DNA of 58,419 nt, taken from contig JAGBCB010000016.1 in assembly GCA_017938145.1 (NCBI GenBank), forward strand, positions 1 through 58,419, given 5' to 3'. The notes below the pieces were generated by a model. The model was not told the DNA's origin, did no database searches, and was given only the letters and a program-made list of their open reading frames with translations. Origin of the DNA: Lachnospiraceae bacterium (GTDB taxonomy: Bacteria > Bacillota > Clostridia > Lachnospirales > Lachnospiraceae). Position 1 is the stretch's first letter; every line of letters begins with the position of its first letter. Both the position numbers and the translations under genes were made by a program. This document shows positions 37,768 to 57,990 of this stretch, one piece after another.

Positions 37768-40700
37768 TTAATAAAAAATTATCTTTCGTGTTCTATATCT
37801 ATACTGCTTTTTATATATCGGTGAGTTAAGATCATCTACTTGCCGTTCCTCCTCGTTATACCAGAAAATCCATCTTCCGTCATCATTAAATCCCCAGCCA
37901 TAATAAGTTACACCTGACTTGTTTGTATACGGCTCGTATGATAATTGTACTTCTACAGTTTTTTCTTCGTATTTGTAACATGCCGAGGTATAATGATCCA
38001 ATGCTCTCTCATAACCGTCTGACCATCGATCACTAACCCATCTTTCATAATGCCATACCGTTTTCTTATTATAGCCAGCTATAACATCATCTGTTTGTAC
38101 ATCACAGCTTAAGGAGCTACTTACAGGTGCATCCTGCCATGCACTCCATTCACCATAGTCACTCCAGTAACCTCGCACATAACCACAGTTATTACAATCT
38201 AAATCTGAATCAGAATCATATCTATGTCCGATTGCATTTCCTTCTGTTGCTCCACACACCTTACAGGTCTTTGCACTCGTACAAGTTGCAGCATTCCAGC
38301 TATGTCCCGTTGCACTTCCTTCTGTTGCTCCACACACCTTACAGGTCTTTGCACTCGTACAGGTTGCTGCATTCCAGCTATGCCCCGTTGCAGCACCCTC
38401 TGTTGCTCCGCACACCTTACAAGTTTTTGCACTCGTACAGGTTGCTGCATTCCAACTATGGCCTGCTACACTTCCCTCTGTTGCTCCGCATACCTTGCAG
38501 GTCTTTGCACTTGTACAGGTTGCCGCATTCCAGCTATGGCCTGTTGCACTTCCCTCTGTTGCTCCACAAACCTTACAGGTCTTTGCGCTTGTACAGGTTG
38601 CTGCATTCCAACTATGGCCTGCTGCACTTCCCTCTGTTGCTCCACAAACCTTACAGGTCTTTGCACTTGTACAGGTTGCCGCATTCCAGCTATGCCCTAT
38701 TGCACTTCCCTCTGTTGCTCCACAAACCTTACAGGTCTTTGCACTCGTACACGTTGCTGCGTTCCAACTATGCCCTATTGCACTTCCTTCTGTTGCTCCA
38801 CATACCTTACAGGTCTTTGCACTCGTACACGTTGCTGCGTTCCAACTATGGCCTGTTGCACTTCCTTCTGTTACTCCGCATACCTTACAGGTCTTTGCAC
38901 TTGTACACGTTGCTGCGTTCCAACTATGCCCTATTGCACTTCCTTCTGTTGCTCCACACCAGCTACAGGTCTTTGCACTTGTACACGTTGCTGCGTTCCA
39001 ATTATGTCCTGTCGCATAAATCGGTTCTGTCCAATAATCACCACAACTGCATATATATTTTCTTAAGCCATTCGTAGTACAACCTGCAGATTCAACCACC
39101 TGTATATCCCAATAATAATTATGCACATGTGGAATCGGTGTTGGTGTACTCGTTGGTTTTGGTGTATTTGTCGGCTTTGGTGTATTTGTCGGCTTTGGTG
39201 TATTTGTCGGCTTTGGTGTATTTGTCGGCTTTGGTGTATTTGTCGCCGTTGGCTCTGGTGTTGGTGTATGACTAGGTGTCGGTGTTGGCGTCGCCGTTGG
39301 TTCCGGACCCTTACTGATTACAACAGTCAATAAGGTACCCTTATCTACTTCCTGACCTTCTTCAATAGACAATGACATAACTAAACCTTCTTGTACACCC
39401 TCACTACTATATGCATAATCCCAGTGTACATCGAGTGCAAGTCCAGCAAGTTTTTCCCTTGCTACGGCTTCTTCAGCAAGCCACAATTCAGGGATACGTA
39501 CCATTTCTTTACCAAGGCTGACTTCTACTGAAATCGTACTTCCTGCCTTTAACTCCGTGCCTACTGGAATATCCTGTGAAATAACACATCCTGCTGCCAC
39601 AGTATCAGAATAGGTTCTTGTGCTGGTATCCAGATAAATCGCTTCTGCTGCAAGAATATTCTGAACTTCCTCCACTGTCTTTCCGGTAAAATCTACAACA
39701 ACATATTTCTTTTCTTCCACAATAGTTGCCGGATCTATACCTTTGGAAACATATATAGTAACTGTAGTGCCTTCATCACATACGCTACCCACTTCACAAC
39801 TTGTCCTTACAACATTTCCTATTACAACTGCTGAATAAAGTTCTTCAACCAGAACCTGAAATCCGGTATCTTCCAGAGCTTTAATTGCTTCTGTTTGTGT
39901 TTTTCCTGAGACTTCAGGCATATAAATCTGCCGGATACCACCGGAAACAACAACACCCATTTTTTGGTTAGACGCCACCAGGGTTCCACTCTTATACGCC
40001 TGGGTTAAAATCAAATCCTTTTTTATATCTGCAGAATATTCACGTCCGGTAATCTCGATCTGAAGTTCTGCTTCACTCAAACGGGTTTGCGCATTCTCAA
40101 TAGTTGTATTTACAACAGAAGGAACTCTAGTTTTGCCGTCCTGAATACTAATGGTATCTGTAATTTTTTCAAAACCGCCTGCCGCAAATGCAACAACCAC
40201 AGCCGCACCTACTACTGCCACGCAGGAGAGAATTGCAATTTTTGCTTTCTTGCTCAGTTTTCCCACATCCATCTGTTTTACTGTGTCAATAATGCGGGCA
40301 ACTTCACCTTGAGATTCCCATTCTTTTAAAAACGCCTCTGCACTTTTTGTTCGGTTTTTCACTTGAACATTTAATGCATTCATAAGGGCAGTTTCTTTAT
40401 TTTTAGAAATACTGACTCCTAGCTTTGACGGTGGCTTCAATGTATCCTTTGCACGTCGTTCCAGAGATGTCGCCGGCGTAATACCGGTAATCATCTTATA
40501 CATGGTAGCCGCAAGTGCATAAACATCCGTCCAGGGTCCTTGTTCTCCACGGCTCTGGTACTGTTCCTCCGGAGCATAGCCCGGCTTATAGATTACCGAC
40601 AAACTTCTACTATGTGTAGCTGAAGCATATCTTGCCGCACCAAAATCCAAAAGTTTAACTCTTCCGTCCTTTGTCATAAAAATATTATCCGGTGCAATAT

Positions 40701-41262: not shown

Positions 41263-41283
41263 TGTAAATTCCCTTTCTTGTTT

Positions 41284-43122
41284 TTACTCCACTATATACT
41301 CTACTAAATTGTTCTTAAGATACTCAAATTCACTATATACCTGTAAATACTCCAGAAATGCATTTTCAGATATTGGCATATAGGAACTCTGATTCTGTAC
41401 ATGCAATGCATCCTGCGCCGCATCTGTCAGCATGTATTCCAACAAAGCCTCTGCCGCTTTCAGCTTATTTCCGCTCCGCTTGTAAATACTAAACTCCTCT
41501 GCCAAATGACTACGCTTATACTCCGGTTCAAACAACTGATATCTTCCGGCTGCCATGCTCTGCACCACATAATACTGTGTGCTATCACTGCTACTGTATC
41601 CTTGCTTTGTCTCCAAGAATTTATTAAATGGCTCTATTGAAAGCTGTGATAATTCTGCTCCTGTTTGTGCGTAAATCACATCAACATAAAAGCCTGTAGG
41701 TATACTAACTTCCGTCTCCGCAGTTGCTGCTAATACGCTAATTATATTACCTTCGACACGGTTCCAAATATCAGATGTTCCTGAAAGCATATTTTCTGTT
41801 GCCTTGTAGAAATTGACATTTTCAATAATATCCGGGCGTTCACTCTTCTCTAAATTCAAAAATTCATCTTCAATTGTCTTACTGTCTTTTACTACAACAG
41901 CCACCTCTATCTGTGGATATAATTGTCTAAACTGCTCGACAACCCCTTCATATCTTTGCTTTTCCGAGGCTCCATTTATCTCTGCGCCATCGACTGCCAC
42001 CCATAATATAATTTGGTCTTCAAAAATTTTATTTTTAACCAATCCAAAATAACCAGCTCCAAGTGCCACCGCTAAAAGAATCACTCCAACTGCTGCAAGG
42101 AAGCTTCTTCTGTTACGTTTCCGGCGTTTTAATTCTTCCTGCATGCTTCGTACTTTTTCTTTATGTAAATCGTCAATAAACTCTTTACTGCTTTTATACC
42201 GAAGCTCCGGTCGCACAGCCATCGCCCGCATTGTTACATTGTTTAATGCAGGAGAAACCATGGTAAGCATTGCCGGTTCCTGCATATTGTCTTCTTTCTC
42301 CCTGTCCGTACTTTCCAAAGGAACCTCATTCGTAAGCAGCCAATAAAGGGTTGCACCAACAGCATAAATATCCGTCCAAGGTCCAAGCTTACCATTTTCA
42401 CGATACTGCTCCGGTGGAGCAAATCCCGGCTTTAAAACAAGTTCATCCTCATCCTTCTGGATTTCCTTAGTTCTTGCTGCGCCAAAGTCAATTATTTTTA
42501 TCTTTCCATTTGGCATAATCAAAATATTGTCCGGTGCTATATCTAAATGAATTGCTTTTCGTTTATGAATCTCTTCAAGACCGAACAATACCTGCTTGAT
42601 AATTTCCAGAATTTCAGATTCCTGTAACCCGTTTTTCTTTTCTTTCACATACTGCTTTAATGTCTTTCCAGTCAAATACTCCATTACCATATAAGCAGTG
42701 CCATTTGCTCTGAATTTATCATAAGTGTTACACACATTTTCACAGTTATCAAACACACTCATAATATTTGCTTCCAGCCAAAAGTTATCTAAACCTCTTT
42801 TATATTCTGCTTCCCTTTTATTCGAAAAGACAGCTATGCTTTTTTCTCCTACAGACCTTGTTACCATGCTAACCGGAAAATATTCTTTAATAACTACCAC
42901 GCAATCAAGTCTCGTATCCCATGCCTTATAGATAATACCAAACCCTCCGGCGCCAACTACTTCACCAATAATATACTCTTTTCCCTGTTCCGTAGTTAAC
43001 ACCGTTCCCGGAGTCAAATAATACGGTTGTTTGCCCGGTTTCCCATCCACATAGCCACAATGCGGACACATACCGCCAACCGCTTCATACGTCCCAAAAC
43101 AGTTACAACATCTTCTTTGCAT
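41284..43122 (-). CDS. Transmembrane Ser/Thr kinase fused to an extracellular solute-binding-like domain
   Basis: 612 residues. Zinc ribbon (CCNCFGTYEAVGGMCPHCGY); kinase domain ~50-325 with GAGGFGI, Lys79, DFG (212-214) and a catalytic loop reading HLDIAPDN (192-199), so the usual HRD Arg is Leu; TM helix ~340-363. The outer ~245 residues start ILWVAVDGAEI and continue VVEQFRQLYPQIEVAVVVKD, with ERPDIIENV, resembling the N-lobe of an extracellular solute-binding protein. It is truncated relative to a full binding protein (about 400 residues). Loss of HRD Arg weakens activation-loop control but D194 remains. It could sense a ligand and signal to the T7SS. Confidence 0.8.
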   Translation of the reverse strand: MQRRCCNCFGTYEAVGGMCPHCGYVDGKPGKQPYYLTPGTVLTTEQGKEYIIGEVVGAGGFGIIYKAWDTRLDCVVVIKEYFPVSMVTRSVGEKSIAVFSNKREAEYKRGLDNFWLEANIMSVFDNCENVCNTYDKFRANGTAYMVMEYLTGKTLKQYVKEKKNGLQESEILEIIKQVLFGLEEIHKRKAIHLDIAPDNILIMPNGKIKIIDFGAARTKEIQKDEDELVLKPGFAPPEQYRENGKLGPWTDIYAVGATLYWLLTNEVPLESTDREKEDNMQEPAMLTMVSPALNNVTMRAMAVRPELRYKSSKEFIDDLHKEKVRSMQEELKRRKRNRRSFLAAVGVILLAVALGAGYFGLVKNKIFEDQIILWVAVDGAEINGASEKQRYEGVVEQFRQLYPQIEVAVVVKDSKTIEDEFLNLEKSERPDIIENVNFYKATENMLSGTSDIWNRVEGNIISVLAATAETEVSIPTGFYVDVIYAQTGAELSQLSIEPFNKFLETKQGYSSSDSTQYYVVQSMAAGRYQLFEPEYKRSHLAEEFSIYKRSGNKLKAAEALLEYMLTDAAQDALHVQNQSSYMPISENAFLEYLQVYSEFEYLKNNLVEYIVE

Positions 43123-43140: not shown

Positions 43141-43941
43141 TTATTTCTCTGCTTTTTCCCACATGAATTTTTCATTGCAAAATGGTACAAATAAAAATTC
43201 TGCCTCGCCAAGTTGGACTTTATCATATGCATTCAATGGTACAATTCCGGTAACCAAATCATCATTACAATAAGTCAGCCCTTTACCTTCTCCGCTTCTC
43301 AAAAGAAATTGGCGTTTCTTCGGTTCAAAAATAATATAGGCATGCTTTTCTCTTGAAATACTTCCTTCCTTTTTCATGCAGATATCCATAGATGAATCTC
43401 TGCCAATGGCACTCTGTCCGGATTTTATTTCAAAACTTTGACCGTAATGCGCTCCTTCAATACATACCAACCAGCCTGTTACCGGTTCTCCTCCGTCCTT
43501 TTGCGTATATATTGACGTTGTTTTCACAGAATCTATATCTCTATGCGTTTTGTTTTCCGATGTAGCAGCATTATACTCCGTGGATTCTTCCTGAACATCT
43601 TCTGCCACATCGGTATCATCTTCTTCAAAACTCCAAAACGAACGTGTCTTATGTTCTTCATTATCCGAATTACTTACTGATTTTTTGACACTCCGAACCG
43701 GCTCCTTGGAAACAGAAGAACTTCCGGAAGGATTAGGCTCCGTTACAACACTGTTCTTTACTTCTTTCTCAGACTTACCTTTACCAAAAATACTAAACCT
43801 TTTCTTTCCACTCTCTGAAACTTCACTATTTTCAACCTCTACTGTTATCTCCGCCTTAGCCTCCTGTGAACCACAATGCGGACACAGTGTACTGGCATCT
43901 ACATCATAAAAATGTCCTTTTACACATCTTACTTTTCTCAT
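43141..43941 (-). CDS. FHA-domain protein with N-terminal zinc-ribbon segment
   Basis: 266 residues. A short N-terminal Cys motif (CVKGHFYDVDASTLCPHCGS), a ~100-residue Ser/Thr/Glu-rich disordered region, and a C-terminal FHA domain with SAIGRDSSMDI and SISREKHAYIIFEP, which binds phosphothreonine. The threonines just before the FHA domain (KTTSIYT) are plausible kinase sites. It lies between kinases and phosphatases and probably acts as their phospho-dependent adaptor. Confidence 0.88.
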   Translation of the reverse strand: MRKVRCVKGHFYDVDASTLCPHCGSQEAKAEITVEVENSEVSESGKKRFSIFGKGKSEKEVKNSVVTEPNPSGSSSVSKEPVRSVKKSVSNSDNEEHKTRSFWSFEEDDTDVAEDVQEESTEYNAATSENKTHRDIDSVKTTSIYTQKDGGEPVTGWLVCIEGAHYGQSFEIKSGQSAIGRDSSMDICMKKEGSISREKHAYIIFEPKKRQFLLRSGEGKGLTYCNDDLVTGIVPLNAYDKVQLGEAEFLFVPFCNEKFMWEKAEK

Positions 43942-43953
43942 AAAGTACCTCCA

Positions 43954-44751
43954 CTATTTTAATCTTAAAAGAATAATACTTGTGTTATCCTGATATGAGC
44001 TTTTTTTCTCATTAGCTTTTTGCAATAAGCCTTCACCCACTCTACTAAGATCTTTAGGATTACGGGCAATAATTTCCAGCATTTCCTTCTCTGATAACAA
44101 CTTATACAACCCGTCTGACTGAAGACAAAGAACATGATTCCTATCAAGTAAAATAGGTTCCTCTGCTATATATTGTTCTTTTATCTCTCCCAGACCAAGA
44201 TAGCCCGTTAGTGCTGCCGCCTTGGATTGTTCCTTTTCGTATATTTCACGTGTAATTTCTCCGCTTCTCAGTTGCCTTTCTAATTGCTCACCATAATTAT
44301 GGTCCTGTGACATCTGAGTTAAACAATTACCATCGTAATAATAAATCCGCGAATCACCAACATTTGCATAGTACACCTTTCGTCCGGCAATCAAAGCAAT
44401 CAGAACCGTACAACCTGCCTTTAGTTGTCTTCCTTCCGGATTTTTCAAAAAATATACCTCTTCGTCTGCAATCTCAATTGCTTTGCGCAGAAATTCCTGT
44501 GGATTACTTTTCCAATCCTGTTCCGATGCAAACTGCATAATTTCCGATACGGCCTTTTCCGCAGCAGTTCTTCCGTTTCCCAAGCCACCCATGCCATCGC
44601 ACAAAACCAACACCATACCCATGTCTTGTTCCATGCATTCAAAAACGTCCTCTTGCTTATCGCAGGTTCCAATGACACTATAAGCCTCTACGGCGTAAAA
44701 TGAATTTTCCAAACTGTAATGACGGTTTGCATTCCTTCTCTGATCCGCCAT
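43954..44751 (-). CDS. PP2C-family protein phosphatase
   Basis: 265 residues with PP2C motifs: VLVLCDGMGGLGNGRTAA (metal-binding Asp and GG) and GCTVLIALI, VYYANVGDSRIYYY, QSDGLYKLL and SSYQDNTSIILL. It should dephosphorylate Ser/Thr targets of the neighbouring kinases. Its N-terminus is less canonical than the upstream PP2C: the usual first acidic motif (REKNED) is replaced by GTCDKQEDVFE. The gap to the other PP2C gene is 3 bases. Confidence 0.9.
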   Translation of the reverse strand: MADQRRNANRHYSLENSFYAVEAYSVIGTCDKQEDVFECMEQDMGMVLVLCDGMGGLGNGRTAAEKAVSEIMQFASEQDWKSNPQEFLRKAIEIADEEVYFLKNPEGRQLKAGCTVLIALIAGRKVYYANVGDSRIYYYDGNCLTQMSQDHNYGEQLERQLRSGEITREIYEKEQSKAAALTGYLGLGEIKEQYIAEEPILLDRNHVLCLQSDGLYKLLSEKEMLEIIARNPKDLSRVGEGLLQKANEKKSSYQDNTSIILLRLK

Positions 44752-44754: not shown

Positions 44755-45489
44755 CTAATCCTCCTCTATAAACACAGCCCCTGCTGTATAGTTATCCATT
44801 TCTTTCCCTTTTCCGTTCTTTTCAACGATTCTTCTCATTTTTTCCAGCCACTCATCCGGTGTTTTGGACCACCTCAGACACCACTTCATTTGAGACTCCG
44901 TAATCAGTTCCCAAAAGCCGTCACTGCAAAGCAAAAACGCCTTTGTCTTTGCCACGTCAATTTCTTCCAAAAAGTCAATGGGATCGTTCTCCCACTCGCT
45001 TCCAAAAACACGAAGCAGGCTGCTCCTATCCTCATGATACCGTATATCTTTTTCTCTGATATCTCCGGCCAAAGCTAACATTTGCGGCACACTGTGGTCA
45101 ATCGTGCGTATGTATTTTCCGTTCTTTAAAAAAGCATATCCTCTGGAATCTCCTACGTACGCCAAATAAGCCCTATCATTTGTTAATGATAAGGCTACTG
45201 CGGTGGTTTTCATCGCATTCACTGCGTTTTCTTGTTTTTGCTTTTCCAAAAGACACTGCTGGGCCTCCCTTAAAGTCTCTGCCAGCCCTTCTTCATTGTC
45301 TTCACATAAAGTTCCCTTCTCAACAATTGTTTCTGCCACAATTTTTGATGCTACTTCTCCCTTATCATGGCCTCCCAATCCATCCGCTACCACAAGAACT
45401 AACTTTCCATTGCTCTCTTTAACGGCAATGGAATCCTCATTTATCTCTCTTGTCCCGGGTAGCGAAAGCGTTGCATATTTATACCCCAT
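44755..45489 (-). CDS. PP2C-family protein phosphatase
   Basis: 244 residues with REINEDSI, LVVADGLGGHDKGEVAS, AYVGDSRGYAF, LCSDGFWEL and DNYTAGAVF, all five canonical PP2C motifs. AGGAGAGAAAGG precedes the ATG. It is the first of the signalling genes after the substrate modules. Confidence 0.92.
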   Translation of the reverse strand: MGYKYATLSLPGTREINEDSIAVKESNGKLVLVVADGLGGHDKGEVASKIVAETIVEKGTLCEDNEEGLAETLREAQQCLLEKQKQENAVNAMKTTAVALSLTNDRAYLAYVGDSRGYAFLKNGKYIRTIDHSVPQMLALAGDIREKDIRYHEDRSSLLRVFGSEWENDPIDFLEEIDVAKTKAFLLCSDGFWELITESQMKWCLRWSKTPDEWLEKMRRIVEKNGKGKEMDNYTAGAVFIEED

Positions 45490-45513: not shown

Positions 45514-45798
45514 TTATTGCTCTAGATTTAAGTTTTCTCTTAATTTTCCTTTTCCAATAAGTTCCATAAGATTCTCATAGCTATTGTCTTTGTACCCCTC
45601 ATGAAGAATCTCGGTAATGTCTTTATGGTTAATAAAGAAAAACACCCTGCTGTCATATGCTCCCATTGGATATCTTACTGCTGAATAATCTCTGGTATCA
45701 CCCTCCTTATTTGTAGGAAAATACCCTACAATCATAAAGCATATTTTACTTTCTTTATCTAGTTTAATGATTGACCCAATTGGCAATAACCGTTCCAT
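45514..45798 (-). CDS. DUF4176 protein (T7SS-associated)
   Basis: 94 residues starting LLPIGSIIKLDKESKICFMIVGY, the DUF4176 pattern, followed by YSAVRYPMGAYDSRVFFFIN. DUF4176 genes accompany WXG/LXG-type secreted substrates and are thought to act in the cytoplasm as partners. It follows the second substrate gene by 15 bases and is a distant paralogue of the protein at 47233. Confidence 0.85.
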   Translation of the reverse strand: MERLLPIGSIIKLDKESKICFMIVGYFPTNKEGDTRDYSAVRYPMGAYDSRVFFFINHKDITEILHEGYKDNSYENLMELIGKGKLRENLNLEQ

Positions 45799-45813: not shown

Positions 45814-47169
45814 TTAGCCAAAAATATTATCCCATAATTTTCCCGCACCATCTGCAATTGCTTTACCGGCCGAAGACAGTCCATCTCCAATTCCTTCAAC
45901 CATAATACCTAATCCGTTTGTCCAACTGTCCCATGAACTATTTTCCATAATCAAATCTTTCATTCGTCCGGTAGCATCAAACACTGCAGCCAGGCCCGTT
46001 TTATCCGAGACATTTTCATACATTGCTTCCAAATCAATTCCCACCATACCGGTCATCTGTTTTACCGGATAGTACCCAATCGCAAGGACCGATGGGTCAA
46101 ACACGGTATCCATTGCCACATCCAATGCAGAATGTGCAAATGTATTGTAATAAACCTCTTTTGTTGTAATTCCGTCCTGCGTAATACTTGTAAGCCAGTT
46201 TGTGACCATATTTGCTCCGTAATCGATAAGCATATTTGCTGGCTTAATTACCGAGAATTGGCAGTCTTTTGTTAATGCTTTTATGCTGTCTGTTTTCTTC
46301 AATGTACCGGAAATAAGATTTATAAATCCACTTGCTCCCTCTGCCATTTTTTCGGAATTTCCGGTATAAAGCCCCTCTCCATAATTTTTAATACTATCTA
46401 CTATATCCAAAGTTGTATCGATTGCATCAATAAACTCAAAACCCGCCTTTACTTCTTCCGGCCACTTAAACTTTTCCTGAGTCAATATCTCATAGGTTTT
46501 GGATATATTTTTGATTTTTTTGCTTTGAGACTTTATCCATGAAACATTTTCTTGTAGTTGCTCGTACGAATTTCCTTCCTGACTAAATAAAGATTTATAT
46601 TCCTTATAGCCATCGACAACAGCATATCCATACAGGCCTAATATTCCATCGTTAACGTCAATTATTTCCGACATTATTTTGCCACTTGGACCGCCCAATG
46701 TTTCCATACATTCTTCAATTTTATTTATAAAATCATTCTTTTCCTCTAATAACGTAGTAGAAGAAAACAACTCATCCAGTGTCTCCAATACATCTGCTCT
46801 GGATAACGGCTGATTTGATTCTACAAGCAGATTACTCAGGTATTCCAAAGCACTGTTTATATTCCAGCTCTCTTCTGCCACATTCCCGTTTTCATAAGTA
46901 TGTAAAATGCCCTGTTCCGTTTGCCGATATTCTGTCACACAATCATTAAGTACTGCGCTCAACCTTTTTAAGCCATTGTGTTGTTCAGAGATATCTTCTA
47001 TATTACTTTTTATACGATTTCTGATACTTGAGTTTGCCGCATCGTACTGTACAATCTTTGCCAATATACCGGTTACCTCTGAGCCTACGGAATTTATTTC
47101 AGACGCAATGTTCTTCTCCCTTTCCGCCAACTGCGTCACAATATCAATATGAACTGCAAACTGTCCCAT
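45814..47169 (-). CDS. Putative T7SS substrate, paralogue of the protein at 47546
   Basis: 451 residues. The N-terminal ~100 residues are helical and match the other substrate (AVHIDIVTQLAEREKNIASE, SSIRNRIKSNIEDIS, YRQTEQ). The rest is alpha-helical with Gly-rich hydrophobic stretches (GLGIMVEGIGDGLSSAGKAI near the C-terminus). No signal peptide and no WXG motif. The pattern (helical targeting region followed by a long variable region, with DUF4176 next) suggests an LXG-like secreted effector; the C-terminal activity is unknown. Confidence 0.7.
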   Translation of the reverse strand: MGQFAVHIDIVTQLAEREKNIASEINSVGSEVTGILAKIVQYDAANSSIRNRIKSNIEDISEQHNGLKRLSAVLNDCVTEYRQTEQGILHTYENGNVAEESWNINSALEYLSNLLVESNQPLSRADVLETLDELFSSTTLLEEKNDFINKIEECMETLGGPSGKIMSEIIDVNDGILGLYGYAVVDGYKEYKSLFSQEGNSYEQLQENVSWIKSQSKKIKNISKTYEILTQEKFKWPEEVKAGFEFIDAIDTTLDIVDSIKNYGEGLYTGNSEKMAEGASGFINLISGTLKKTDSIKALTKDCQFSVIKPANMLIDYGANMVTNWLTSITQDGITTKEVYYNTFAHSALDVAMDTVFDPSVLAIGYYPVKQMTGMVGIDLEAMYENVSDKTGLAAVFDATGRMKDLIMENSSWDSWTNGLGIMVEGIGDGLSSAGKAIADGAGKLWDNIFG

Positions 47170-49400: not shown

Positions 49401-49700
49401 CTAATATCTCTTGGTCATTGCTGTATCTACATTAAGACTTTCTGCCTTTTCATATTCTGCAGCTATCTGTTCCAAGGTGTAACAATACTTTTCAATTTCA
49501 GCAATGAACTTGTCCATATACGCCTTATCATTCATAAAGGAAGCATGAAAAGCATCATGAGATGGACCGCTCCACTGACTGTTCAATGAAGACTCCGCTC
49601 CTTCTAACTGAGCTACCTGTGTTTTAAAATTAGAATTCTGTTCTCTCAGAGATGTTGCAGTAGCTCGTAATTCTGTTGGTGTTACAAGAATTTGTGCCAT
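49401..49700 (-). CDS. WXG100 family protein
   Basis: 99 residues, helical hairpin with the turn SQWSGPSHDAF at about 41-51. A C-terminal YEKAE resembles the YxxxD/E export signal. It may heterodimerise with the next WXG protein. Confidence 0.9.
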   Translation of the reverse strand: MAQILVTPTELRATATSLREQNSNFKTQVAQLEGAESSLNSQWSGPSHDAFHASFMNDKAYMDKFIAEIEKYCYTLEQIAAEYEKAESLNVDTAMTKRY

Positions 49701-49784: not shown

Positions 49785-50273
49785 TTAACCCCGTCGGCCT
49801 CCGCCTGCACTGTATCCGCCACCGGAGCTTCCTGATGTGCTTGCTTTTGCGGTATCAATGGACGATAATGTTTCTTTGAGTACCTCTGATGCTACTTTTC
49901 CTGCAACACCACCCGACATCCCAGCCACATTCGAAATAACATTGACAGTCTGTTTCGCCAACTCTCTCTGTTTTTCTTGATAAATGCGAAGATTTTCCAT
50001 TTCTGCCGCATATGTATTCTGCGCATTGCTCCTAATCGTAGCTGCAATATTTCTTAGTGCTTTTGCCGTGTTTGCAATATCTGCTTGAAGTGCTTCTCCT
50101 TTTCTCAGATATTTTTCTGCATTCTCACCCTTCCATGCCACGCGGAGTTCTTCAAAAACTCCTTCTAAGGAACCGTTTGCCAATTTGGTCAGGCGACCTG
50201 CTTCGTCTTCCAATTCAGAAGCATATTCTTTTGCCATTGCCAAATCGGCTTTAATCTGTCTTTCTGTCAGCAT
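49785..50273 (-). CDS. WXG-like protein with long helical and Gly-rich tail
   Basis: 162 residues. The WXG-type hairpin has turn RVAWKGENAEKY (~45-56); a longer second helix is followed by a Gly/Val region and a Ser/Gly-rich tail (SGSSGGGYSAGGG). Longer than a typical WXG100 protein; could be a distinct substrate or a component bridging substrate and channel. Confidence 0.8.
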   Translation of the reverse strand: MLTERQIKADLAMAKEYASELEDEAGRLTKLANGSLEGVFEELRVAWKGENAEKYLRKGEALQADIANTAKALRNIAATIRSNAQNTYAAEMENLRIYQEKQRELAKQTVNVISNVAGMSGGVAGKVASEVLKETLSSIDTAKASTSGSSGGGYSAGGGRRG

Positions 50274-50285: not shown

Positions 50286-50603
50286 TTATACCAATACATC
50301 TCCCGGCAATTCGTTCGCCAATTGTTCTAAATGAAGTTCTTTGTCACTATATCTTTGCGCAATTTCCAGCAAATCTTTAGGATGTTCCTCTAAGCGTTTT
50401 AAAACCGACTCCTGCTCTTTGATTGCATCCTGATACATTTCCCGGTAAAAGCTTCCTGCTTCTCCAAGCCAATAGCTTTCTGTTTTTTCTACCAAAGATG
50501 TCATTGTAGAAAACTTTTCCCGTATGCTGCTTACCTTTCTTTGCAGTTCGGAGGCCTTTACTACCAGTTCTTCCGGCTTAACACTAATTGTTCCTTCACC
50601 CAT
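50286..50603 (-). CDS. WXG100 family protein
   Basis: 105 residues, helical hairpin with turn ESYWLGEAGSFY (~41-52). A cluster of like proteins on both sides suggests specific heterodimers. Confidence 0.87.
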   Translation of the reverse strand: MGEGTISVKPEELVVKASELQRKVSSIREKFSTMTSLVEKTESYWLGEAGSFYREMYQDAIKEQESVLKRLEEHPKDLLEIAQRYSDKELHLEQLANELPGDVLV

Positions 50604-50623: not shown

Positions 50624-50926
50624 TCATATCCGTAAACTATCTATCTTCTGTCCAACCGAACTCTCGCATTTTTCATAGGCCAATCTGGCATTCTGCATAC
50701 CCTTCAATATTTCCTCCATATTCACCTGCATATCCAACCACACCTGACGGTCCGCATTGTATTGCTTAGTAAAAACATTTTTAGCATCTCCCTGCCACAT
50801 CGTATTCAGCGAAGCAATCAGTGTATCCATTTCATCCATTTCCTTTTTTAATCCAGACAAAACCTCTTCCATATCCTGTGTATCCTGCGCCAGGCTACCG
50901 GTATTTACTTCAATCACATTCTCCAT
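50624..50926 (-). CDS. WXG100 family protein
   Basis: 100 residues, helical hairpin with turn LNTMWQGDAKNVF (~40-52). AGGAG fits the ATG at 50926; the longer frame overlaps the upstream gene. Confidence 0.87.
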   Translation of the reverse strand: MENVIEVNTGSLAQDTQDMEEVLSGLKKEMDEMDTLIASLNTMWQGDAKNVFTKQYNADRQVWLDMQVNMEEILKGMQNARLAYEKCESSVGQKIDSLRI

Positions 50927-50939
50927 TCGCGGCTCCTTT

Positions 50940-51302
50940 CTAAACAATCACCTGGTTAATAAAATCACGTATTTCATCTCTATATTCTACAACCAGCCAT
51001 GTAGGCTCGGTAACGTTTCTCCGAATATGCATTTCAAAAGATTCTAAAACATTGTCCTCAGTCTCCTCGTACTGTTCCACAATTTCCCGTAACAAGGAAA
51101 CCAGTGTCAAATAGGACATTCTTTCTCTCTGCAGTTCCTCCAGTGCTACTCTCATCTGTAGATTACATTCGCTTACTTCATTTTCTCCGGAGTATTTGGC
51201 AGTTGTTTCCTCAATTTCATATAAAACATGATTCATGACTCTTAACTGACTTTGCAGTTCCATAAGCAATGTTTTCGTTTTTCTCAAATCAACACAAAAC
51301 AT
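50940..51302 (-). CDS. Small helical protein, WXG-like with Trp replaced by Tyr
   Basis: 120 residues, nearly all helix. The expected WXG turn reads AKYSGENEVSE, so the Trp is Tyr. AAAGGGG precedes the ATG at 51302. First of the six small helical proteins to be transcribed; possibly a cytoplasmic chaperone or a degenerate WXG partner. Confidence 0.7.
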   Translation of the reverse strand: MFCVDLRKTKTLLMELQSQLRVMNHVLYEIEETTAKYSGENEVSECNLQMRVALEELQRERMSYLTLVSLLREIVEQYEETEDNVLESFEMHIRRNVTEPTWLVVEYRDEIRDFINQVIV

Positions 51303-51395
51303 TTCATTCCCCTTTCGCAAGTTCACTTTATCATGTCATTTCATGAATTTACCAAAAATCCGACAAGTGGTCATTTTCTTTGGACGAATGACCAA

Positions 51396-51644
51396 TCAGA
51401 CAAGAATCAAACGTGCTCCATCTGCAATTCCGTTTCCTGCCAAGGTGGTTCCTCTATCGAGTAAGCTTTCACCAAAGTACTGACACAAACAAAGTTTTTT
51501 TCTATCACCATGCAAAGAACAATGCTCCTTTTGGCAGATGATTTCTGTAATTTCTTCAATAAGTACATCCAATTTTGTATTTTCATCCAATTGAAATTCA
51601 TAATTATTGTTCATGCTTGGGACAAATACATCCACCAAAATCAT
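51396..51644 (-). CDS. YukD/EsaB-like ubiquitin-fold protein
   Basis: 82 residues, ILVDVFVPSMNNNYEFQLDE at the start and GTTLAGNGIADGARLILV at the end, the ubiquitin-like beta-grasp pattern of YukD/EsaB. EsaB is a conserved small cytoplasmic T7SS component. The ATG overlaps the upstream stop as ATGA. The internal cysteines (ICQKEHCSLHG, LCLCQYFG) are unusual. Confidence 0.85.
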   Translation of the reverse strand: MILVDVFVPSMNNNYEFQLDENTKLDVLIEEITEIICQKEHCSLHGDRKKLCLCQYFGESLLDRGTTLAGNGIADGARLILV

Positions 51645-52303
51645 ATAATTACTTCCTCCTCTGACATAGATATTATTCTTTGAAAAAAATCCTCAGGTGA
51701 ATAACGTAACAACCGATTTCCTGATAATCTCTGCTCAATCACCCAATAATTGTGGTCCGTGCGAATTAAATTAAACCATTTTTCAGCTTGTACCATCTCA
51801 TTCTCCACACATAACAGCCGATACTGATAACAGACCGGAAAACATACCATTTTTGCTTCTACTTCCTTATAATTTTCCAATTTAGCAAGTTCGGCATCCA
51901 ACAAAGACTCCGGAAGCAGTCCCTGCTCTGTTAACACAGTATACAAGCCCTCTTTACTACAAATACTAATTCGTAAAGAACCCTTATCGGCCAAACTTTC
52001 CTCCATACAGACAACTTCATCTCCAATGTAGTACCAGCAAATCTTTCCTTCTCTTTGACGCTTATGAACTGACAACACATATTTTGCAGAACAAAGAATT
52101 TGAAAAATCCTACGGTAAAACATAGAAACATTCAATTTGCCATTTTGGGGTTGCAGTATCCCACTTCTGGTCATCTCATGAATCTGATATGGAATTAACC
52201 GTTCTTCTGTTTTTTCGTAAGAAAGACCGTACACCTGTTTTAAGTGAAATGCTGATGCCAAAATCAATAATTCCTCTTGTTTCAATATACAAAAGTCCTG
52301 CAT
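51641..52303 (-). CDS. Unknown T7SS-locus protein
   Basis: 220 residues, mixed alpha/beta with no recognised motif, signal peptide or membrane helix. It starts DFCILKQEELLILASAFHL and includes a central beta region. AGGAGA precedes the ATG. Between the LytTR gene and EsaB, coupled to EsaB by a 4-base overlap. Length and place recall cytoplasmic ESX accessory chaperones of the EspG type, but no sequence link is visible. Confidence 0.7.
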   Translation of the reverse strand: MQDFCILKQEELLILASAFHLKQVYGLSYEKTEERLIPYQIHEMTRSGILQPQNGKLNVSMFYRRIFQILCSAKYVLSVHKRQREGKICWYYIGDEVVCMEESLADKGSLRISICSKEGLYTVLTEQGLLPESLLDAELAKLENYKEVEAKMVCFPVCYQYRLLCVENEMVQAEKWFNLIRTDHNYWVIEQRLSGNRLLRYSPEDFFQRIISMSEEEVII

Positions 52304-52311: not shown

Positions 52312-53019
52312 CTACTGTGATAATTCCATAATTATTCCACGGTAACTTCTGGAAAAAGGTACTTCTATTCCATCTGCCAGAATCAGCTGTCCTTGAGAAC
52401 GAAGAACTTTGTCAACCTTTTTCCAGTTCACCATAAAGCCTCTGTGACACCGGACAAACTGTTTTGGCACTGTCTCTTCCAATGCATCCAATGTACCGTA
52501 AAATGCATATCCTTCTTTCTTCAAACGGACAAACAGCTTCTTTTCCCTTGCTTCAAAATAGTAAATCTGTGAATAAGGAATCCTCATTTTCTCTTCTTTT
52601 GTATCAACTACAAAGACATCCTGTTCGGATTCCTTATTCAGGTATACTTCCATCAGACTACGTAATTTGCTTCTCAAATCATTTTCCTGAAATGGCCGTA
52701 ATATTAACTCCGATGCCAAAATATCCGGTTTAATGTATTCCATCGGCGACATATGATTATCAGCAACCAACATCACCTTCATTTCCTGATAAATTTTTCT
52801 TATCTCATGTAAAAACTCCAAGTTCTCTTTTTTCGTAACATCGTAGCATGAAAGATCAAGCAATGGAGTTTCTTCCAGGTAAGCCTCCAAATCACTTAAC
52901 AGCCGGAACGTCGGAATTTCCCACTTGTCCTCGCTCAAGTAAGCCGCCAAATCCTTAATCTGGTTTCGAATCAATTCCGCTTCCTGTTTGCTGTTATTGT
53001 AATTTAAAACAGAGACCAT
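52312..53019 (-). CDS. LytTR DNA-binding protein with degenerate receiver
   Basis: 235 residues. Residues ~1-120 resemble a response-regulator receiver without its acidic pair (the N-terminus is VLNYNNSKQEAE) and with RPF for the conserved Lys-Pro; an Asp in LSCYDVTK is near the phospho-site. Residues ~135-235 form a LytTR domain (IPYSQIYYFEAREKKL, KQFVRCHRGFMVNWKKVDKV, FSRSYRGIIM). No histidine kinase is adjacent. Second gene in the T7SS operon, so probably its regulator, perhaps modified by the Ser/Thr kinases. Confidence 0.85.
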   Translation of the reverse strand: MVSVLNYNNSKQEAELIRNQIKDLAAYLSEDKWEIPTFRLLSDLEAYLEETPLLDLSCYDVTKKENLEFLHEIRKIYQEMKVMLVADNHMSPMEYIKPDILASELILRPFQENDLRSKLRSLMEVYLNKESEQDVFVVDTKEEKMRIPYSQIYYFEAREKKLFVRLKKEGYAFYGTLDALEETVPKQFVRCHRGFMVNWKKVDKVLRSQGQLILADGIEVPFSRSYRGIIMELSQ

Positions 53020-53022
53020 CTT

Positions 53023-56000
53023 TTACCCCCTGACAAGCGGTATAACCACCTTAGAACATTCTTCTCCATTTCCTGTTGGCAACATGGCAATTCCTGCTTT
53101 TTGAACTTTTGCCTTCTCCACATACGGAATATTAGAAAAATCCATATAATTCAGACTTTCTACCGAACCACCGAGATGCATTCCAACCCGATAACTCAAG
53201 AAACCTTCTAATATCTTGGAACCCATTACCTTTCCGATGTTTGTTTGGTCCACGCCAATAAAGAAATAAATATTATGTAATTTACCCTTTTGCGCTATAT
53301 TTTCTACAAAGCCCCGAATATCCACAACTCCTTCTTTGGGATTGCTCATAGAAGTAATAAACGCTGCCATATCATCAATAACAACAAAGTATGGTTCCTC
53401 TTTGCGCATCTCTGCAAAAATTTCCGAATCGCTTCTTCCGTCTTCTAACAGTGCACGTTTTTTCATATTCCTTTCCTTAAACGGATTCACCAACGACGCA
53501 AAAAATTCTGCCTGTTGCTCCTGAGTATTAATGTACTGCGCACCTACAGCCTTTGCCGTTGACATTAATTCAGCAGAACTATGCTCAATAACAATAACCT
53601 TGCCACTCTTTTTGCTTGCGGAACGAATCAATGCCTTCTGTACATTTGTCTTGCCGGTACCAAGCTTGCCGGAAATTAAATAAGTAAACAGTTTTTCAAG
53701 ACTAACTCCATAGATTTCAGCACTGCTCATTTCATAACCGACCGGAAGCAGGTTTTCTTCCATATCCATCTGCTTTACTTCTGCCAGTTTTTCATAATCC
53801 TCCCAGGCAGGTTTTTCAGGAATCATAGGAATTATCTTTGCTCCATATCCGTTCCAATGGTCACGCATTGTTCTGCAAATTGCGTCAATCTGTTCCATAC
53901 GTTTAAAATCATCTTCTGCCTTCAATGCTACGGCTGCCTGGAACTCTAAAACCTTGCCGTCTACAACCACAAGACCTCTTCCCTTTACATTTGTTTCCGG
54001 AAGAACATCAAAATGATTTTGTCTTAACGCATCCCCATACGCAAATTTGTCGTTCATCTGCAGACACACTACTGTTTTAATATTATCAGCCATTTTCATT
54101 GTAATTTCTGCCGACGAAAATCCTCCTGCCGTCACAATTAAATAAATGCCATAGCTGATACCTTCTTTTAAGAGTCGTAAAATCTTATCATCGTATTTAC
54201 CATCCGTCTTTTCACGAAATGCACCGATATTATCCAAGGCAACTACTATCGCTGGCAGCACTACACCATGTGCCTGTACATACTGTGCGTAATTACCACC
54301 GCTAAAGATTTTCTTTCTTTCCTCTATGATGTGTTCCATCATGTAGAAGAACTTTGCAATCTTGTCCTCATCATCCTCGAAAACAACTCCTCCGACATGA
54401 GGTGCATTAACAAGCGAATTCAACATATGGCTACTAAAATCTATCACATATACGTTGACCCAATCCGGCTGATATTTGCTTATCAGCCCGAATAAAATAG
54501 TTTGCAACAATGTACTCTTTCCGCTAACAATACTTCCACAGATTGCCAGATGTCCACCCTCTGTCAAACTAACCGGTAATGAAAACTGTGCCTGGTTTTC
54601 CGGGTCATCACACAGACCTGCAAATACAGATAAATTCCATTTTCCGATCTGCTTCTTCCATGTTCCACCCTGAAATTCTTCATTTCTATACTCAGCAAGA
54701 TCGGACAGACAAATTTGTTTCGCTAACGGAGGCAACCATAATTTCATTTGCTCACCATAGCCTTCCTGCTTTGCAATTCTTCCCAAGTATTCCACTACAG
54801 CATCCAGTTGTGTTTTTCCCTTTGTTTCCGGAAGCTTCAGTCGATTTCTTTCTGCTATCAGAATGATTTCCCTTACATTATCTTCTGTAAGCTCTTCCTT
54901 GCTCTCAGGAATTCTTCCTGCAGCAATTTTCATCAGATTTTCAACTTTTCTTGCATTACTTTCTGTAAATTCAAACTCCAGACGGTTTCTTGCTGCATAA
55001 TCAAAAAATCTCTGAATACGGTTTTCATTCCGGGCATACTCCGAAACAGTTTCCTGCTCAGCGACAGCAGCATCATAAATTGTGAACAATACCTTCTTAA
55101 TCCACGTGATTTTAATTAACTCCTGTTGCTTTCTCTTTAGACTGTTTCCAATTAAGGAAGTTCGACCTGTTGTAGAAATCATGCGGGCAACTTCCGTTTT
55201 AACATTGCCGGTATCCTCATCATATACAGCACCACTGTAACCGGACTGAAACAGTTCATATACTTCATCATTGCCCACCTGAAGATAGCTTCGACCCGCT
55301 TGCGTAATATACGCTGCATCCGGCTTATGAAGCATATCATTACTATCCTGTCTGTCCTGTACCCGTAAACATAACCGGAATTTCGAGTTGCTCCAGATGT
55401 TATCATCAACGGTCCCGCTTGGTTTTTGCGTAGCTAATATCAAATGGACACCCAGGCTTCGTCCCACCTGTGCAACCGAGATTAATTCTTTCATGAATTC
55501 CGGTTCTTCTCTCTTCAACTCAGCAAATTCATCTACTATAATAAACATGTGAGGCACAGGAACTTTTGCTTCACCACTCTTATAAAGTTTTGTGTACAGA
55601 TTGATATTGTTTACATTATTCTCACTGAAAAGTTTCTGTCTCCTTCGATTTTCACTCTTGATAGAAACCATAGCCCGTCGTACCTGACTACCGGAAAGAT
55701 TTGAAATTGCACCAATCATATGCGGTAATCCATCAAACAAGCCTGCCATTCCGCCACCTTTGTAGTCGATAATAAAGTAACCTATATCATCCGGGCTGAA
55801 ATTCATAGCAAGCGAGAGCATATATGTCTGCAATGTTTCCGATTTACCGGAACCTGTTGTACCTGCCACAAGTCCGTGCGGACCATGATATTTCTCATGA
55901 ACATCCAAATAGCATGGCACTCCTCCTGCTTTAAATCCAACCATTGCTTTCATGTTTTCGTAAGTTCTGTTTTTCTTCCAGTTTTCTGCAATGTTTACTT

Positions 56001-57990
56001 CATTCAAGCTCTGAATTCCATACATTTCAAAAAATGTCAATGAATTTGGAATATCTCTTCCGCTTTCTCGCTCATTAACCTGAATAGAAAGTATTCTTCT
56101 GGCAAAACGTTCTACTTCATTCGCAGAAATCTTATCAAACAGAATGCTCTGTGTTTCTTCCCTGTTCAGATTATAAAAGCCGCAAAATTCATCATTATTT
56201 TTTAATATGTTTTCACAGTTGTTTGGAAGTTCTTCTTCATTCTCAACCAAAAGAAGCGTTGTCAAACCATAACATGGGGCCATTTCATAAATATATTTTG
56301 TGATTAATTCACCTTCTAAAAATTCAGGTTCCGAAACAACCATAACGTAATATGGTTTAGGCAAAGTAACTTTTTTACTTTCCTCATCCTCTGCTCGCAT
56401 ACGAAAAACTTGTAAAAGTTCAAAGAAAATATCACTTGCCTGTGACTTATTTGCTGCTACATATCTTGTTTTTTTGTCTTCTGACCAAACATGAGGAAAC
56501 CATCTGGCATATTCCCACTCCTCTGCTTCTTTAGTGCCATCATATACAAAAACAAGTTTTACATCCGTATAGCAATTGTTTGCAGCAATCTGTGTTGTTA
56601 ATGCACGGACAATTTCAAATGCCCCTTTCTTACGACTTCCTCCAACCACTCCAAGTAACTTATTTTCGTTTAATTCTAAATTTACCGGAACATCTTGAAG
56701 CAAACTGTACTTTTCTTTTATCTGTTTTGGTCTGTCAGCTAATTCATCAGATAAAACAGAAAACTTTTCTTTGGGAATACTGATTTCTAAAGGAAAACTA
56801 TATTCTCCTTTTCCTAACCTTACAGATAAAAAATCTTTATGTTTTTGATTTCTATTCCATAATTCAGAATTACTTTTTTCGTATTCTGCTACTATTGTAG
56901 CTTCTGGATACAAATCATTTAGATTTTTGCTATACTTTTCATATTGTCCTTTGATCTCATTTTCCCGTTCCTGCAAATATGCTTCATATGTTTCTATTCT
57001 CTGTTCTTCTTCGCGGGCCATTTCTTTCTTGTTGAACCGCAAATTAGCCAGTGCCCAATATACTCCGACCAGAGCCGAACCAGCTGCGGTAATAATTCCT
57101 GTGTACATATACACACTAGCATTACTTCCGGATGATCTTGCACTCAAAATTGCAATCACACTACCTGTAAGCATTGGAATCATCATAGTAAAAGATGGAC
57201 CAATTAACATCCAAATTGGTTTTTTGGCCATTCTTTTTGGAGCTGGCGGAGCTTCAATCTCAATCTCTTCTGTTTTTGGACAAATATAATTTCTCGGTGC
57301 TCTATGAAAATACTGTTTCTCCTTAACTTCAATTGTTGCATTTAATTCATTATCCCCTGCAAAATCCAGTTCCTGTAGTTTTTCATCTATCCGGTATACA
57401 TTTCCATCTCTACCACTAATTGCTAAGATTGTTCCAAGATATACAATTTTAAGCCCAAAAATGTTAATACAATCCCCTACATGTAACGCTTTACTTCCAT
57501 CAATTCTTTTTGCATTGACAAAAGTTCCATTTGAACTTGTATCCTTTATTGCAAACCCTCTTTCCATTCTCTTCAAAACTGCATGTTGTTTTGAAACAAG
57601 TGAAAGATACTGATATTGAATATCATTTTCAGGCTCACTTCCGATACTTAATTCCTGTCGTTTAGATATATCATACTTTTTGAAAACTGAAAACGATTCA
57701 TCTGTTTCACGAATAATACAGGAAATTTCCTCTCCGTTTTTTGTTAAAACATTAATTATGTCATCATGGCATAATTCACTATTATGCATACCATTCTTTT
57801 TCTTAAACTTATAGGAAGAAGACTTGACAATACGCCATACACCATCTACATTTTCGAGATCAATTGAAATATCTTCTTTGAACAAGAAAATATTCTTTTT
57901 CAAAATAATTTGTGTATCTGCATTATTAATTGCCGGGAGTAAAAAATCACAGGAAGCTTCTTTTGCATAAACCGAAATAACAAGACTCAT
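53023..57990 (-). CDS. essC: Type VII secretion FtsK/SpoIIIE ATPase with FHA domain (EssC-like)
   Basis: 1655 residues. The N-terminal ~200 residues carry an FHA domain (SIGSEPENDIQ, SKQHAVL, DTSSNGTFVN), the usual EssC pair (the first weak). Two TM helices lie at ~260-320 (WMLIGPSFTMMIPMLTGSV, GIITAAGSALVGVYWALA). Then come three ATPase domains: AGTTGSGKSE (~710), CGSIVSGKST (~1155) and SGKLGTGKTN (~1443), with Walker B IIVDEF in the first. It is the motor of ESX secretion, driving WXG substrates through the membrane. The upstream in-frame extension is rejected: AAGGAAGGGG precedes the ATG at 57990. Confidence 0.95.
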   Translation of the reverse strand: MSLVISVYAKEASCDFLLPAINNADTQIILKKNIFLFKEDISIDLENVDGVWRIVKSSSYKFKKKNGMHNSELCHDDIINVLTKNGEEISCIIRETDESFSVFKKYDISKRQELSIGSEPENDIQYQYLSLVSKQHAVLKRMERGFAIKDTSSNGTFVNAKRIDGSKALHVGDCINIFGLKIVYLGTILAISGRDGNVYRIDEKLQELDFAGDNELNATIEVKEKQYFHRAPRNYICPKTEEIEIEAPPAPKRMAKKPIWMLIGPSFTMMIPMLTGSVIAILSARSSGSNASVYMYTGIITAAGSALVGVYWALANLRFNKKEMAREEEQRIETYEAYLQERENEIKGQYEKYSKNLNDLYPEATIVAEYEKSNSELWNRNQKHKDFLSVRLGKGEYSFPLEISIPKEKFSVLSDELADRPKQIKEKYSLLQDVPVNLELNENKLLGVVGGSRKKGAFEIVRALTTQIAANNCYTDVKLVFVYDGTKEAEEWEYARWFPHVWSEDKKTRYVAANKSQASDIFFELLQVFRMRAEDEESKKVTLPKPYYVMVVSEPEFLEGELITKYIYEMAPCYGLTTLLLVENEEELPNNCENILKNNDEFCGFYNLNREETQSILFDKISANEVERFARRILSIQVNERESGRDIPNSLTFFEMYGIQSLNEVNIAENWKKNRTYENMKAMVGFKAGGVPCYLDVHEKYHGPHGLVAGTTGSGKSETLQTYMLSLAMNFSPDDIGYFIIDYKGGGMAGLFDGLPHMIGAISNLSGSQVRRAMVSIKSENRRRQKLFSENNVNNINLYTKLYKSGEAKVPVPHMFIIVDEFAELKREEPEFMKELISVAQVGRSLGVHLILATQKPSGTVDDNIWSNSKFRLCLRVQDRQDSNDMLHKPDAAYITQAGRSYLQVGNDEVYELFQSGYSGAVYDEDTGNVKTEVARMISTTGRTSLIGNSLKRKQQELIKITWIKKVLFTIYDAAVAEQETVSEYARNENRIQRFFDYAARNRLEFEFTESNARKVENLMKIAAGRIPESKEELTEDNVREIILIAERNRLKLPETKGKTQLDAVVEYLGRIAKQEGYGEQMKLWLPPLAKQICLSDLAEYRNEEFQGGTWKKQIGKWNLSVFAGLCDDPENQAQFSLPVSLTEGGHLAICGSIVSGKSTLLQTILFGLISKYQPDWVNVYVIDFSSHMLNSLVNAPHVGGVVFEDDEDKIAKFFYMMEHIIEERKKIFSGGNYAQYVQAHGVVLPAIVVALDNIGAFREKTDGKYDDKILRLLKEGISYGIYLIVTAGGFSSAEITMKMADNIKTVVCLQMNDKFAYGDALRQNHFDVLPETNVKGRGLVVVDGKVLEFQAAVALKAEDDFKRMEQIDAICRTMRDHWNGYGAKIIPMIPEKPAWEDYEKLAEVKQMDMEENLLPVGYEMSSAEIYGVSLEKLFTYLISGKLGTGKTNVQKALIRSASKKSGKVIVIEHSSAELMSTAKAVGAQYINTQEQQAEFFASLVNPFKERNMKKRALLEDGRSDSEIFAEMRKEEPYFVVIDDMAAFITSMSNPKEGVVDIRGFVENIAQKGKLHNIYFFIGVDQTNIGKVMGSKILEGFLSYRVGMHLGGSVESLNYMDFSNIPYVEKAKVQKAGIAMLPTGNGEECSKVVIPLVRG

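Follow-up and report, generated by a model that had tools for sequence, protein, structure and literature searches.

We analysed a 58,419-nt stretch of DNA, hereafter the window, which is the whole of contig JAGBCB010000016.1 (G000:C68:1-58419) of Lachnospiraceae bacterium, assembly GCA_017938145.1. We found that it carries a type VII secretion system (T7SS) operon of a lineage centred on the Lachnospiraceae, and that the order of its core genes is common to loci that we presume to belong to the subtype T7SSi. The explanation that we favour as a whole, and regard as reasonably probable, is that this is such an operon and that its set of kinases, PP2C phosphatases and FHA proteins acts on the EssC complex.

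The operon has 19 genes, all on the minus strand (57990 to 37768). Between essC and the PASTA kinase gene, neighbouring genes are spaced by −8 to 84 nt, and 185 nt then separate the latter from the next gene beyond. The first-pass annotation had taken these genes as one operon, and the spacing bears this out. The order is essC, a LytTR regulator, a protein of 220 amino acids (aa), YukD, a 128-aa helical protein, five WXG100-type proteins, a 477-aa LXG-like protein, DUF4176, a 451-aa LXG-like protein, DUF4176, two PP2C phosphatases, a zinc (Zn)-ribbon FHA protein, a Zn-ribbon kinase with a solute-binding-like ectodomain and a Zn-ribbon PASTA kinase. The membrane ATPase EssC (essC/tsxC, 53023..57990) matches TIGR03928 with 1120.4 bits (cut-off 778.4) and has an N-terminal FHA domain (PF00498, 51.2 bits), as previously annotated. 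An EssC/EccC ATPase together with a WXG100 protein marks a T7SS in general, and the operon has this ATPase and four WXG100 proteins over the cut-off.

We compared the window with the best 80 of at least 545 EssC relatives found in a scan of genome contigs, which by title are mostly Lachnospiraceae and other Clostridia assemblies. Relatives found include the culturable Anaerostipes sp. 992a (L185) and Blautia luti (L135). All 80 loci were analysed by script, and gene content was obtained from six-frame profile counts on the essC strand. Contig ends truncate many of the loci; we call fully flanked the 41 that have 9 kb or more on each side. A kinase was found in 48 of the 80 loci, PP2C in 31, and an FHA protein besides EssC in 69. 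In the fully flanked subset the counts were 29, 23 and 37, respectively; a kinase or PP2C was present in 33 loci and any of the three in 40 of the 41. This comparison supports the earlier proposal of a variant T7SS that has a kinase, phosphatase and FHA set and lacks EsaA, EssA and EssB.

These usual T7SSb membrane parts, which the first-pass annotation had noted as absent from the operon, gave no match over the cut-off in the 78%-complete genome either. EssB (PF10140) was over the cut-off in none of 41 genomes; in the window's own genome the match reached 23.1 bits against 27.4 and contained one stop. The EsaA N-terminus (TIGR03929) was over the cut-off in none of 26 genomes, with weaker matches in four, the own genome not among them. 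EssA (PF10661) was marginally over it in one of 26 genomes (25.9 versus 24.1 bits) and below it in one more, the own genome being neither. Among 14 named control genomes, EssB and EssA were found over the cut-off in B. subtilis alone; EsaA matched in four, including B. subtilis, and one of these, not named, was over the cut-off. On the upstream side, 357 nt of the contig lie beyond the longest essC open reading frame (ORF). It could be supposed that the operon is a degraded or incomplete T7SSb, with EsaA, EssA and EssB in the unsequenced fifth of a genome that is 78% complete. However, each search set included a 97%-complete genus mate, and the EspG-fold and LytTR content is unlike T7SSb as published (T7SSb EssC stood outside our tree comparison), so we consider this supposition very improbable. 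The membrane kinases may instead take the topological place of the EsaA, EssA and EssB layer.

The kinase, phosphatase and FHA cassette

The signalling cassette starts 24 nt after the second DUF4176 gene, and its internal gaps are 3-21 nt. Phosphatase a (44755..45489, PF13672 57.4 bits) and phosphatase b (43954..44751, PF00481 61.0 bits) both have the active-site metal motifs. The catalytic Lys, the HxD Asp and DFG are present in both Ser/Thr kinases. The two kinases and two phosphatases annotated before are all confirmed over their cut-offs. The first kinase (41284..43122, PF00069 135.2 bits) consists of a Zn ribbon, the kinase domain, a transmembrane (TM) segment given by a hydrophobic stretch at residue 338, and an ectodomain like that of solute-binding proteins. 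The second (37768..41262, PF00069 121.9 bits) has a Zn ribbon, the kinase domain, a TM segment, four PASTA stretches (PF03793, 131.6 bits) and nine CxxC repeats. The repeats, 26 residues long with a CxxC pair each, run from residue 778 to about 1011, outside the membrane by position, and are unusual on a kinase. The FHA adaptor (43141..43941) is a Zn ribbon, a linker and an FHA domain; it has no TM helix by hydropathy, and all our helix counts come from a plain hydropathy window rather than a trained predictor. The adaptor call holds with PF16697 (35.6 bits, cut-off 33.2) and falls just short with PF00498 (20.5 against 20.7). The first-pass annotation had omitted the three Zn ribbons and the PASTA and solute-binding-type ectodomains, as well as the EspG-like protein and the two DUF4176 genes.

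The two operon kinases are among seven Pkinase matches in the genome, of which the strongest lies on another contig (C55) and is, in our reading of its sequence, PrkC-like. A related kinase in locus L070 matches SBP_bac_1 with 37.8 bits (cut-off 26). The non-PASTA kinase ectodomain of the window has no SBP_bac_1 match of its own, and a PDB sequence search with it gave nothing at E <= 0.1. A structure of this ectodomain predicted from four sequences was too poor (predicted local distance difference test score, pLDDT, 52) and was set aside.

The five signalling genes might be an independent passenger module, found downstream of several T7SS types through chance or mobility and playing no part in export. 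The cassette does stand beside two EssC lineages, and its position varies: it is downstream in the window, and in L112 a kinase, a PASTA kinase, two PP2C and an FHA gene lie directly upstream of essC. In L070 and L071, PP2C-PP2C-ZnFHA-kinase-PASTA kinase stands after an EssC of a different lineage. The window order was also seen beside an EssC in L298 and in L299, the latter with one more PASTA kinase; L294 has the cassette beside an EssC with one PP2C found, and in L300 the cassette includes two small ORFs, on a 12.8-kb contig with no essC. For four of the five cassette proteins, the top-ranking relative in the loci, or one of the top three, came from L112, L070 or L071; for the second PP2C the best were L159, L121 and L166. 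A passenger would also agree with other Zn-FHA, PP2C and kinase clusters that have no EssC in the stretches read, and with fully flanked relatives that have neither kinase nor PP2C. However, a kinase, PP2C or extra FHA gene is present in all but one of the 41 fully flanked loci, and the cassette is closely spaced with the genes before it. Terminator-like sites are no more frequent than in shuffles (11 versus 11.9), and the minus-strand ones of the operon fall inside genes. Thus, we regard the passenger explanation as unlikely.

The related loci have further FHA proteins. One of 60-260 aa is encoded directly upstream of essC in 54 of the 80 loci; the count falls to 41 if the protein must either have a predicted membrane helix or be truncated by the contig start. 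A longer one, of 400-640 aa and also with a membrane helix by prediction, is found in 37. The adaptor linkers have an acidic-x-Thr-hydrophobic motif in 10 of 10 homologues, with 28 overlapping matches against a shuffle mean of 0.9, although the pattern was defined post hoc. Elsewhere there was no clear general enrichment: the motif was present in 4 of 7 further FHA proteins of the soluble kind (mean in shuffles 1.9, maximum 5), in 8 of 34 one-helix FHA proteins (3.0, maximum 9) and in 8 of 36 longer membrane-helix FHA proteins (4.9, maximum 11).

Two of these long FHA proteins (L051:13548-15143, L112:20653-22308), representative in size of those in the 37 loci, were compared with Pfam and have the layout vWA - TM - FHA. 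Proteins of this kind often lie between the WXG array and PP2C in the relatives, and none was seen in the window. The FHA domain is over the cut-off in both of the two; for vWA, L051 passes with 32.0 bits and L112 falls short (22.0 versus 27). We did not see such a protein among the components described by Garrett, Higginson & Palmer 2024 (PMC11217815). Another recurring cluster was observed in L290, L293, L303, L302 and L291: a Zn-ribbon FHA protein, proteins of about 140 aa and one of about 730 aa, mostly followed by PP2C-type genes with predicted TM segments, and with no EssC in the stretch read. It is possibly another phospho-controlled machine in the Lachnospiraceae.

A further reading goes beyond the one that we favour, and we put it forward tentatively, as rather doubtful. 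The operon would represent a distinct T7SS subtype that is frequent among the Lachnospiraceae and whose membrane layer consists of signalling proteins. Kinases that are active and carry outward sensors, together with the one-helix FHA and vWA-TM-FHA proteins of the relatives, would replace EsaA, EssA and EssB, and threonine phosphorylation would assemble them on the EssC FHA domain. The Zn-ribbon cassette would be swappable and traded between EssC lineages, its adaptor carrying the acidic-x-Thr motif before the FHA domain, possibly as a GarA-like switch.

The EssC FHA signature and the LytTR regulator

Five loci, L210-L214, which come from a single different family within the same taxonomic order, have EssC-LytTR-EspG-like-YukD arranged as in the window. 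From their gene content we take them to be T7SSi loci, presumably of Vallitaleaceae. The EssC tree was a single FastTree run on 119 sequences, with L298, L299 and the EssC of T7SSa, T7SSb, T7SSc and named T7SSi outside the set. The window EssC pairs with that of L112 (support 1.0) inside a clade of 91 sequences (0.95); L112 is the nearest relative, with 59% identity over the best segment. L210-L217, L221 and L223 form a separate clade (0.976).

The FHA signature is well kept in the 91-sequence clade, with G141 in 89 of 89, N178 and G179 in 89 of 89 and H160 in 86 of 89. At position 157, S or T is found in 82 of the 88 sequences with a residue (S in 78, T in 4). The window EssC keeps G141, S157, H160, N178 and G179. 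By comparison, the signature is lost in all eight of L210-L217: in L210-L214, S157 is replaced by Lys in 5 of 5 and N178 by Lys or Arg in 5 of 5, and L215-L217 also have neither S157 nor H160. No kinase, PP2C or FHA gene was found in the 14.8-19.9 kb read at these eight loci. S/T157 and H160 are kept in the kinase-bearing loci L220, L221, L222, L070, L071, L083 and L224, of which L220 has no N178. L069 keeps the signature and its own stretch has no signalling genes, but the cassette lies farther along the same contig (L294). This pattern, in which EssC loses its FHA signature where kinase genes are missing nearby, has counter-examples and can be checked.

It is also possible, although we believe it somewhat doubtful, that the kinases, phosphatases and FHA proteins are an envelope-stress unit whose target is transcription of the operon, by way of the LytTR protein, rather than the export machine itself. 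The LytTR regulator (52312..53019, PF04397 75.6 bits) adjoins essC in 68 of the 80 loci. Its N-terminal part reads as a divergent receiver, with no receiver match over the cut-off, and when 44 homologues are compared none of its invariant or almost invariant columns is an Asp; it could therefore receive input that does not come from a histidine kinase. For the T7SSb of Enterococcus, control by the kinase IreK has been reported, as cited in PMC11217815, and the Zn-FHA family also occurs without EssC. However, the FHA signature is kept in the clade of the window and lost in the eight T7SSi-side loci without local kinases, and a short FHA gene often stands directly upstream of essC. The latter suggests physical contact with EssC, and both observations argue against an action on transcription only.

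Several observations weigh against the explanation that we favour, besides the incompleteness of the genome. Eight of the 41 fully flanked loci (L113, L115, L130, L131, L144, L153, L161 and L162) have neither kinase nor PP2C, and L113 and L115 are among the nearest relatives of the window. Members of the Zn-FHA adaptor family turned up in 23 of the 150 genomes searched at family level and in 46 of 392 at order level (E <= 1e-8). In 12 of the 23 there was no EssC match beyond FtsK level, and in some others the Zn-FHA gene was on a contig other than that of essC; thus, the adaptor family is not dedicated to T7SS. At EssC position 142, which adjoins the conserved FHA glycine, Lys or Arg is present in 49 of 89 relatives; the window has Ser, and its FHA domain may therefore bind phosphothreonine weakly. 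In L218 and L219 the signature is intact although no kinase was found in the 12.1 and 6.7 kb read, and L223, L074 and L075 have kinase genes nearby yet a degenerate EssC FHA domain. Finally, the clade with L210-L217 joins the lineage of L069-L071, L083 and L224 (16 tips, 0.981) before the side of the window, so that the shared core order need not make T7SSi its nearest kin. It is plausible that export itself would be phosphorylation-gated; the circuit may equally well act on expression through the LytTR regulator.

Under the explanation that we favour, the PASTA and solute-binding-type kinases would respond to an extracellular signal, either cell-wall fragments or a ligand, by phosphorylating threonines. 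These phosphothreonines would be bound by the Zn-ribbon FHA adaptor, possibly also by the FHA domain of EssC, and assembly or activity of the EssC complex would be promoted or permitted. The two PP2C phosphatases would reset the phosphorylation, and the LytTR protein would set expression of the operon.

Export core, candidate substrates and flanking genes

The genes downstream of essC are conserved, as the comparison suggested by the first-pass annotation revealed: among the 80 loci LytTR was found in 69, the EspG-like gene in 64, YukD in 71, small WXG genes in 68 and DUF4176 in 31. The 220-aa protein (51641..52303), a TsxG candidate, has an EspG fold supported by fold comparison. Its family profile against PDB sequences gave four rows with E of 0.13-0.56, none of them EspG, and only the fold comparison worked. 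A single-sequence search found it in 1 of 295 genomes, the own one, because the family diverges fast (12-24% identity); the profile is what reached the 64 loci. The YukD/EsaB-like protein (TsxB, 51396..51644) had been named correctly as to family, but its own score is 24.5 bits with PF08817, under the cut-off of 27.

Six WXG-like proteins had also been proposed, of which four pass the WXG100 cut-off (PF06013). Position 1 is the 128-aa helical protein (50940..51326), which has no WXG100 match and no WxG motif. Positions 2 (50624..50947, 27.9 bits), 3 (50286..50603, 42.2 bits) and 4 (49785..50273) form a trio, and positions 5 (49401..49700, 49.8 bits) and 6 (49061..49375, 49.5 bits) a pair. The protein at position 4 has 162 aa with a C-terminal tail and a WKG motif, and at 20.8 bits it is under the cut-off. 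In the 62 loci with at least 5 kb downstream, positions 1 to 6 could be assigned in 26, 57, 59, 59, 57 and 56 loci. Sixteen of the 62 loci have the order 1-6 and another 16 the order 2-6. Of the remaining 30, about half show the trio 2-3-4 and the pair 5-6 permuted or duplicated, and two had no array. Six of L210-L217 have three or four WXG genes, and none were seen in the stretch read of the other two. EssC, YukD and this ordered WXG100 set would most likely be the export core, as in the T7SSa and T7SSb literature.

The 477-aa protein (47546..48979) is a candidate LXG-like substrate with a weak WXG-like N-terminus, sub-cut-off WXG100 and EspC matches only, a hydrophobic C-terminal part with a stretch near residue 354, and six BLAST relatives in the loci. 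The second candidate, of 451 aa (45814..47169), has no family over the cut-off and three BLAST relatives; neither protein matched the Pfam LXG domain at E <= 1. Each is followed by a DUF4176 gene (47233..47535, PF13780 89.5 bits; 45514..45798, 68.2 bits) of the type that partners LXG export. Export of the LXG toxin TelA needs a DUF4176 protein, and one DUF4176 protein binds TspA (PMC11481500, PMC11322744). The EspG-fold protein would be a cytoplasmic chaperone that delivers LXG and WXG substrates, with the DUF4176 proteins assisting.

The longest ORF of essC starts from 58062; the ATG at 57990, which fits the relatives, is its probable start. A promoter-like site 5' of essC (58081..58109, minus strand) matches at 11 of 12 positions, and TG precedes its second hexamer. 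Such sites are not enriched overall (39 observed against 52.4 in shuffles), and this one alone scores 11, which is no more than suggestive of a real promoter. Divergent from essC, a short ORF at 58184-58348 (+) resembles an XRE-type helix-turn-helix in its first 30 or so residues and then loses this character before the stop; near the contig end, it reads as a truncated gene or assembly edge. Downstream of the operon lie a secreted-looking 375-aa protein (36455-37582), without a Pfam match over the cut-off, and a 104-aa protein (36095-36409); neither has relatives in the loci searched.

An EssC with most of the protein matched at 41-53% identity was found in 14 of 150 family genomes (one per genus) besides the own genome; G009 has a fragment at 55% identity and G120 a match at 35%. 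In the same-genus genomes G001, G002 and G003 no full-length essC of the window type was found: G001 has FtsK-level matches only, and G002 and G003 have partial matches at 31-53% identity, the G003 match being on a contig of 4 kb. Within the genus the system looks accessory, although these three assemblies are fragmented.

Comparison with known secretion systems

Garrett, Higginson & Palmer have described eight subtypes, T7SSc-j, and have made the same comparison with the type VI secretion system (T6SS) as the first-pass annotation. The idea is therefore not new: the T7SS class, the theme of kinase, PPM phosphatase and FHA, and the T6SS comparison are already in print in PMC11217815, which also raises threonine phosphorylation as a possible control of T7 secretion. 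The catalogue rests on RefSeq, and Lachnospiraceae is unmentioned in its main text (0 'Lachno'; the supplements lay outside this check), and we did not see the clade of the window named there. We found no description of this clade in the open-access literature with a search that was weak in part.

T7SSi is reported in that paper only from Vallitalea, which NCBI places in Lachnospirales, and has an EssC with a degenerate FHA domain and YukD-like, EspG-like and LytR-like genes. The window shares this core of EssC-FHA, LytR-type regulator, EspG-like and YukD-like protein (YukD under the Pfam cut-off). However, its EssC is in a clade separate from L210-L214, assuming that those are T7SSi, and it keeps the FHA signature, whereas the phosphothreonine motif of T7SSi is described as poorly conserved. 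Signalling genes for kinases, PP2C and FHA proteins and an array of six WXG-like genes are further features of the operon. At L210-L214 the 16.7-19.9 kb read contained none of these signalling genes; three of the five loci have three or four WXG genes, and in the other two none was found. No TsiM-type gene of T7SSi was seen in the window up to the contig end. In L210-L214 the gene upstream of essC, of 442-503 aa with a C-terminal TM segment, is at the likely TsiM position; its product reads like a receiver with a MinD/TadZ-type ATPase and not a kinase, and the one tested had no Pfam match over the cut-off.

According to the same paper, T7SSe and T7SSj resemble the window in a membrane kinase, a PPM phosphatase, a separate FHA protein and an FHA signature on the ATPase. 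However, their FHA component (J) has DUF6382, and neither DUF6382 nor an Ig-type TsxI was matched among the 19 operon proteins, which were the scope of this search; an Ig-domain protein is present in L070. The EspG-like and LytTR genes are further differences. T7SSc, as published, shares the kinase, the PPM phosphatase, the EspG-like protein and a vWA component, the last with the relatives of the window. Its EssC has no FHA domain, its vWA protein is cytoplasmic, and LytTR is not one of its seven core components. T7SSb (Ess/Yuk) has in common with the window the EssC family with FHA, YukD, WXG100 proteins and LXG-type substrates with DUF4176 partners. It differs in EsaA, EssA and EssB, not found in our 78%-complete genome, and in the EssC FHA signature, which the window keeps and which is absent from T7SSb according to PMC11217815.

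The likeness to PpkA/PppA/Fha of T6SS is one of logic only, a kinase, a PP2C and an FHA reader beside a secretion machine; the machines are unrelated and we claim no common secretion gene. With PknB/PrkC-type kinases, both window kinases share the catalytic motifs and one the PASTA ectodomain. The Lachnospiraceae are a large gut family, and the EspG fold, the ordered WXG proteins and the phospho-signalling set would make this system a place to test control of T7 secretion by threonine phosphorylation. Compared with the systems already described, what this lineage adds is a chaperone-like protein, ordered small export proteins and an exchangeable signalling cassette.

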